From: Thermolongibacillus altinsuensis
GTDB taxonomy: Bacteria; Bacillota; Bacilli; Bacillales; Anoxybacillaceae
DNA: 64,000 bases
Direction of reading: 5' to 3'
NCBI RefSeq assembly: GCF_004341205.1
Contig: NZ_SLUL01000008.1
Location: 62,001 to 126,000 of the forward strand
A program made the position numbers and the translations under genes. Each line of letters starts with the position of its first letter. Positions within the stretch are counted from its first letter, which is position 1. The notes beneath the pieces were generated by a model. It had not been told where the DNA came from. It searched no databases and worked only from the letters and a program-made list of their open reading frames with translations. This document shows positions 53,059 to 56,126 of this stretch, piece by piece.

Positions 53059-53142
53059 CTTTTTCACTCCTACTATACATGCCGGACTACACTAGATTTG
53101 ATTATAGCAACATCAATACAAAGATTCAATGCATACAAAAAC

Positions 53143-53218
53143 AAAGTGTGAATCTAGTTTTTTAGTTTTTGTGAAAGATCCTTCCCCATTCGTTTTCTGC
53201 CACGGTCTGCCAAAAAAC
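53143..53218 (-). repeat. Inverted repeat, copy A (end of yqxA)
   Basis: A 76-nt stretch that is the reverse complement of 56060-56126, with a gap of about 10 nt and a few mismatches. The shared blocks include AGATCCTTCCCC, TTCGTTTT and CACGGTCTGCCAAAAAA. Copy A covers the last 18 codons and stop of yqxA and about 20 bases beyond it. Confidence 0.85.
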
Positions 53219-53575
53219 TCCCTTTCCACAAACATTTTGCTCAGTCAAAAACAAAAAAGCCGGGGAAGCACTCCCGACTTGATCGAGCAACGAAAACATT
53301 TGTTGCACAACGGAATGAACGAAAAAGGCTAATTTTTTCCCGAACTCCGAAAAAATATTCAATGTTTCCATCCGTTGCAACTGCTCCTTTTTTTCTTCAA
53401 TCGACTGCCCAAATAGAACCGTTTCTTCTTTCGAAATATGAAAAACTTCTTGAAAATCCGGATCTTTGTATCCCTTCATTTTCATCATTCCTTCATTTGC
53501 TTGTTGCATCCCTAGCAAAACACCGAACAAAAAAATCACAAGCGTTAATAAAAATTGAATCGTAAATTTAATCAT
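53162..53575 (-). CDS. yqxA: DUF3679 protein YqxA with a repeat-derived tail
   Basis: A 137-residue protein. An N-terminal membrane segment (MIKFTIQFLLTLVIFLFGVL) precedes a soluble helical region (GYKDPDFQEVFHISKE ... EKKEQLQRME). Position between spoIIP and lepA, and the sequence, match YqxA (DUF3679). Its last 18 residues, VFWQTVAENEWGRIFHKN, plus the stop codon are encoded exactly inside inverted repeat copy A, so the native C-terminus was probably replaced. The function is unknown; a sporulation link is inferred from the operon. Confidence 0.8.
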   Translation of the reverse strand: MIKFTIQFLLTLVIFLFGVLLGMQQANEGMMKMKGYKDPDFQEVFHISKEETVLFGQSIEEKKEQLQRMETLNIFSEFGKKLAFFVHSVVQQMFSLLDQVGSASPAFLFLTEQNVCGKGVFWQTVAENEWGRIFHKN

Positions 53576-55960: not shown

Positions 55961-56059
55961 TTCTTTATACCCTCCAACTTGTTTTATTATTGGTTTTCCC
56001 ATCTTTTTCCCTTTCCATACCATTCATGCTTTTATGGAGTAAAATGGTTATGGGAAGGT

Positions 56060-56126
56060 GTTTTTTTGGCAGACCGTGTCAGAAAAACGAAGGGGGAAGG
56101 ATCTCTAAAAACTTGACTCACACTTT
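56060..56126 (+). repeat. Inverted repeat, copy B (gpr-rpsT gap)
   Basis: A 67-nt stretch, reverse complement of copy A at 53143-53218, between divergent gpr and rpsT. The two copies bracket about 2.8 kb containing spoIIP and gpr. Confidence 0.85.

Follow-up and report, generated by a model that had tools for sequence, protein, structure and literature searches.

The yqxA reading frame and its ancestral end

In the 64,000-nucleotide stretch of Thermolongibacillus altinsuensis DNA analysed here (the window), the list of open reading frames places yqxA on the minus strand at 53162-53575, flanked by spoIIP and lepA, and gives it a length of 137 amino acids. YqxA (DUF3679) is a protein without known function, and a search of open-licence literature for DUF3679 returned no match. 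The Pfam DUF3679 profile matches residues 7-52 with an E value of 3.8e-20, and the conserved part of the protein is intact. The ancestral part is assigned to residues 1-101 (53273..53575, minus strand) on the basis of the Pfam match, tblastn alignments and the position of the stop in relatives, at codon 102.

We found YqxA in all 41 family genomes, T. altinsuensis included. In each of the 40 relatives, which belong to other genera, the protein measures 101-115 amino acids and the tail is absent, leaving the YqxA of this genome 22-36 residues longer. The 101-115 amino acid range comes from 35 relatives read by one motif; the remaining 5 were read by a second motif and span 116 residues from stop to stop, or 112 from methionine. 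Start codons were chosen by script throughout. The YqxA sequences at named loci of Anoxybacillus tepidamans and A. vitaminiphilus are identical to those of two of these relatives (G014 and G036), and an abstract (PMC11407518) places Anoxybacillus in the Anoxybacillaceae, the probable family of these genomes. Thirteen tblastn alignments extend to residue 110 at least, the longest to residue 121, and every one of them runs over a stop codon in the sequence of the relative. The nine genomes of the most similar genus (g2; most similar by YqxA comparison rather than by a tree) align at 61-64% identity, encode a YqxA of 101 amino acids and have their stop as codon 102. The original prediction held that the tail was not ancestral, and this is borne out: no orthologue that lacks the repeat carries the same tail among the 40 relatives. 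Its expectation that similarity would end near residue 119 was misplaced, as the nine most similar proteins end at residue 101.

In T. altinsuensis, codon 102 is AGT. The corresponding stop of the g2 genomes, TAA or TAG, forms the tip of a terminator hairpin in nine of nine cases (L056-L064): it lies wholly in the loop in four of them (G002, G003, G005 and G009), and in the other five the T of the stop takes part in the closing pair. A hairpin followed by T residues is found at the end of yqxA in the g2 relatives and in several g3 relatives; among the latter, for example G013 and G014, the stop stands at the base of the stem on its 5' side. With the g2 layout, a ribosome terminating at the yqxA stop would sit on the terminator. 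The window retains this intrinsic terminator on the minus strand at 53257..53280, as a hairpin AAGTCGGGAGTGCTTCCCCGGCTT followed by TTTTGTTTTT, but here it lies within the reading frame. The terminator scan returned two overlapping sites against a mean of 0.4 in shuffled sequences, and the fold of 53256-53282 has an energy of -12.1 kcal/mol (z -3.07), a stability reached by 0 of 200 shuffles.

From codon 102 onwards the frame passes through DNA of two origins. By sequence comparison, codons 102-110 (SASPAFLFL; 53246..53272, minus strand) derive from what was once terminator sequence and from the duplicated target. A repeat element begins at the third position of codon 110, and codons 111-137 (TEQNVCGKGVFWQTVAENEWGRIFHKN) together with the stop are entirely element DNA. 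The new tail comprises 36 residues, 9 from the terminator and duplication and 27 from the element. The stop codon, TAA at 53162..53164 on the minus strand, is located inside the element approximately 90 bp beyond the terminator stem. The segment 53162-53218, which encodes VFWQTVAENEWGRIFHKN (the final 18 residues) and the stop, had been predicted to mark exactly the part of yqxA inside a repeat copy. That segment does lie inside a real repeat, but the boundary was set wrongly: the element runs from 53146 to 53246, and the segment misses nine of the 27 codons that it covers.

A miniature element between yqxA and lepA

The element, hereafter copy A (53146..53246, minus strand), was delimited by a genome search and by its flanks, and has the characteristics of a 101-bp non-autonomous MITE, putatively of ISLre2 type. 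It is bounded by a target-site duplication TTTGTTTTT, identical at nine of nine positions, whose left copy (53247..53255) falls within the T residues of the yqxA terminator and whose right copy occupies 53137..53145 (both minus strand). Copy A has an intact left end and a right end disturbed by extra bases. A second member of the family, copy B, was identified between gpr and rpsT (56037..56123, plus strand) by repeat pairing and the genome search. It pairs with copy A across three inverted-repeat arms at 77, 86 and 90%. The left end of copy B is shortened, its left flank ends in TTTTATG and its right flank is TTTTATGCC; a search by motif of six regions for the corresponding empty site found no rpsT start. 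When the repeat was used as query against its own genome (2.90 Mb in 39 contigs), copy B was recovered with an E value of 2.5e-15 and further copies with 9.0e-21, 5.7e-14 and 6.3e-7, in addition to weaker matches. The repeat shared by copies A and B is real, and chance is excluded.

Patterns for the left and right ends each match 13 places in the genome, compared with 1 and 0 for the reversed controls, and certain left-end matches with three mismatches are probably due to chance. Twelve copies, copy A and 11 others, have both ends; they measure 46-195 bp and carry no transposase gene. The copies were delimited by eye, and one-ended examples such as C4:30.2k, C15:57.7k, C3:220k and C6:169k were left out. 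Allowing a shift of up to 2, the best 9-mer target duplications of the twelve score 9, 9, 9, 9, 8, 8, 7, 6, 4, 4, 3 and 3, and 0 of 132 mismatched flank pairs used as a control score 8 or more. Six of the twelve thus remain below 8, four of them with 3 or 4, copy B included. Short, multicopy, devoid of a transposase gene and associated with a target duplication, the family of copy A is a non-autonomous MITE. Across the family of genomes, the right-end pattern was found in 27 of 41, with reversed-control matches totalling 3. Among the listed matches in open-licence literature, no title describes the repeat.

One copy of 46 bp (L130 ~1476-1521; G000:C5 ~6.3 kb) consists of hardly more than the two ends and has a duplication of 8/9. 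Another (L004 near 1501-1575; G000:C20 ~11.1 kb) sits, as judged by eye, within the left arm of a hairpin resembling a terminator, and its 9/9 duplication TAAAAACTA repeats part of that arm. Together with the T-tract position of copy A, this may point to a preference of the elements for terminators. Longer copies (L085 1501-1717, L103, L096, L105 and others) share a conserved core whose fold is a four-way junction, with a closing stem TTTTCTGCC/GGCAGAAAA and three hairpins. In an alignment of 29 cores, three of which are reverse-strand readings of loci already included, both partners change in 11 of 42 base pairs, and pairing is kept in 1157 of 1175 gap-free cells; the structure was itself drawn from this alignment. 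Other genera of the family carry this core between different ends, AGTGTTGATTATCC...TTAATCAACAC.

Other roles for the repeat were considered and rejected. Copy A lies upstream of lepA and copy B upstream of rpsT, as a promoter or leader might, but another copy lies beside rnc and further ones beside other genes, and no part of the lepA promoter comes from the element. As a candidate RNA family, element A folds no better than shuffled sequence (z -0.11, with 77 of 200 shuffles at least as stable). Rfam reported one tRNA in the window and no match to the element, and in four element loci only a fluoride riboswitch located elsewhere in L096. A long partner element was sought in the same genome by searching with both ends, and every pair that was read was short. 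At the rnc locus (L134 1434-1521; G000:C5 ~131.2 kb), a related element, whose left end is weak and whose duplication scores 6/9, seems to supply the rnc stop, with GAC TGA forming its left end. A second fusion was rejected here, the RNase III tail being of the usual length (within one residue, 14 of 40 relatives), and the rnc case would represent at most a stop replacement. Separately, rnc of G004 is split into two overlapping pieces (G004:C1:940172-940893), either a frameshift or an assembly error.

Downstream of copy A, the lepA promoter (TTGAAT - 17 bp - TATAAT; 53101..53129, minus strand) is intact, with 7 bp between it and the right target duplication. The promoter scan returned one site scoring 10/12, no better than shuffled sequences (mean 1.3), and the call therefore rests on conservation: identical TTGAAT and TATAAT boxes stand 5' of lepA in the relatives compared. 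With the element present, 129 bp separate the hairpin from TTGAAT; once the element and one duplication are removed, 19 bp remain. Measured in 14 of the 40 relatives (the nine g2 genomes and five of seven g3), this spacing ranges from 12 to 21 bp; many other relatives have a longer gap ahead of lepA. The empty site obtained by joining the flanks contains a yqxA frame of 130 amino acids that runs through the lepA promoter and stops in the lepA leader. Since the frame remains extended in the empty site, the extension was made by the loss of the stop and not by the repeat. As judged from this reconstruction, the element shortens nothing ancestral, and merely ends a frame whose stop was lost before or after the insertion.

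Relationship to ISLre2 transposons

The terminal inverted repeats of the MITE are similar to the two ends of a UPF0236 element of 1641 bp found in a related genus, in genome G004. This genome has 17 matches to the right-end pattern, one of which belongs to the 1641-bp element. That element has GTATGAGTAAAATGTTTGTGG as its left end, GTTTGAGTCAAGACTTTGTGG as its right end and a 9-bp duplication around it. A second G004 copy of 1640 bp also has a 9-bp duplication; the duplications flanking the two copies are TGCGTTAAA and CATCAGAAA, and that of the MITE equally measures 9 bp. The protein encoded by the 1641-bp element is a UPF0236 protein (PF06782, E 8.7e-131) and is named ISLre2 transposase by NCBIfam (NF033529, E 4.5e-85, 286 bits against a cut-off of 200). 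The left end of copy A matches the left end of this IS at 19 of 26 positions and its right end at 15 of 26. The distinction is weak on the other side, where the right ends of six other MITE copies match the IS right end at 17-24 of 27 positions and the IS left end at 14-21 of 26, and fit the former hardly better than the latter.

PMC8024623 reports that both ISGka4 and the ISLre2 family generate 9-bp duplications, and that transposition is active in Geobacillus. Copy A is thus similar in its ends and its 9-bp duplication to the ISLre2 family (UPF0236, PF06782), of which ISGka4 of Geobacillus kaustophilus is an example. Unlike these elements, it is devoid of a transposase gene and measures 101 bp, compared with 1641 bp for the G004 element. 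On these similarities we infer that the MITE was mobilised in trans by an ISLre2-family transposase. PF06782 is matched in 30 of the 41 family genomes, 28 of them above the cut-off, and in 0 of 14 control genomes. The PF06782 profile found no match in the draft genome of T. altinsuensis itself, which at 39 contigs may miss IS copies, and tblastn with one ISLre2 transposase, run without a positive control, likewise returned nothing from this draft. The elements in this genome are probably stranded, unless a transposase gene sits in an assembly gap.

Origin and consequences of the YqxA tail

Can the extended frame be explained by other means? The repeat had been proposed to truncate an ancestrally longer YqxA, and the stop codon does lie in the element. 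We consider this extremely improbable, as the lengths of the orthologues refute it: the 40 relatives examined have shorter proteins, the conserved part of YqxA is intact and the joined empty site yields a 130-residue frame reaching into the lepA promoter and leader. The proposal that the tail is a domesticated, selected extension draws on the 27 element codons over which the frame remains open, and on the commoner left end of the element (GAGTAA), from which an in-frame TAA would be expected that instead reads CAA in both copy A and the C20 copy (L004). The C20 copy carrying this same C follows the stop of another gene, however, and the shared C accordingly looks like the state of a subfamily, as opposed to the product of selection for an open frame. 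The stop is moreover placed beyond a strong terminator, and the tail is seen in one genome, the sole representative of its genus in the comparison set. Selection on the tail is thus very unlikely.

An assembly or sequencing error would place the true stop at the hairpin tip, as in g2, with a single codon miscalled. The genome is a draft of 39 contigs, and the departure from g2 at the tip covers a short stretch. Against this, the tip differs from g2 at several bases and the stem is still paired. The other two frames are free of stops from nt 273 to the element: their first stops occur at nt 329, composed of one duplication base and two element bases, and at nt 333, likewise at the junction or in the element. 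An indel near codon 102 would therefore restore no earlier stop, and a substitution would be required. We regard such an error as very unlikely.

The explanation we favour, and consider highly probable, is that the loss of a stop combined with a MITE insertion made the YqxA tail. What the DNA itself shows is the element with its duplication, the missing stop, the absence of the tail from relatives and the terminator within the frame. In this scheme, an ISLre2-family transposase acting in trans would have placed a miniature element of 101 bp in the T-tract, downstream of the yqxA terminator hairpin and upstream of the lepA promoter, with duplication of 9 bp. The yqxA stop, presumably once at the hairpin tip as in g2, would have been lost either before or after this event. 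The frame now traverses the terminator and the duplication and ends at the first in-frame stop of the element, adding 9 residues and 27 residues respectively. The behaviour of intrinsic terminators and trans-translation are both established, and form the basis for the predicted fate of the transcript. As the stop is downstream of an intrinsic terminator, a terminated yqxA mRNA would have no stop and the tail may rarely be translated. Much of the yqxA mRNA would end ahead of the stop and be treated as nonstop mRNA, by tmRNA or a similar rescue system. The 36-residue tail would be made only on transcriptional read-through, perhaps aided by ribosomes melting the hairpin, and is likely to be nearly neutral. 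The effect on YqxA itself is probably small.

Rickettsia palindromic elements sit in frame within genes; copy A differs in lying at the 3' edge of a gene, where it only ends the frame. These elements are described as small repeats inside genes in a passage of PMC2759123. The same source describes the enterobacterial repeat RU-1 fused to the amidase ECA3499. That case resembles YqxA in that a gene has a MITE-like repeat at its 3' end which replaces the stop and adds a C-terminal tail, but concerns another element, host and protein; in yqxA, the terminator still present upstream of the element also became coding. A repeat that replaces a stop and adds a tail has thus already been described, and what yqxA adds is the terminator turned coding.

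It is also conceivable, albeit very unlikely, that yqxA acts as a conditional nonstop gene, in which ribosomes either melt the hairpin, giving read-through and the 36-residue tail, or stall on an mRNA without a stop. If so, translation would set both the turnover of yqxA and the read-through into lepA, in a sporulation gene cluster, and the MITE would provide a last-resort stop whichever of the three frames is read. Under the stop loss and insertion that we favour, the YqxA tail is mostly an ordinary accident of genome evolution, in which non-coding DNA, a terminator and then a MITE, would have turned into protein by being joined to an old gene through the loss of one stop. The YqxA case also ties a repeat family of this bacterial family to the ISLre2 transposons.
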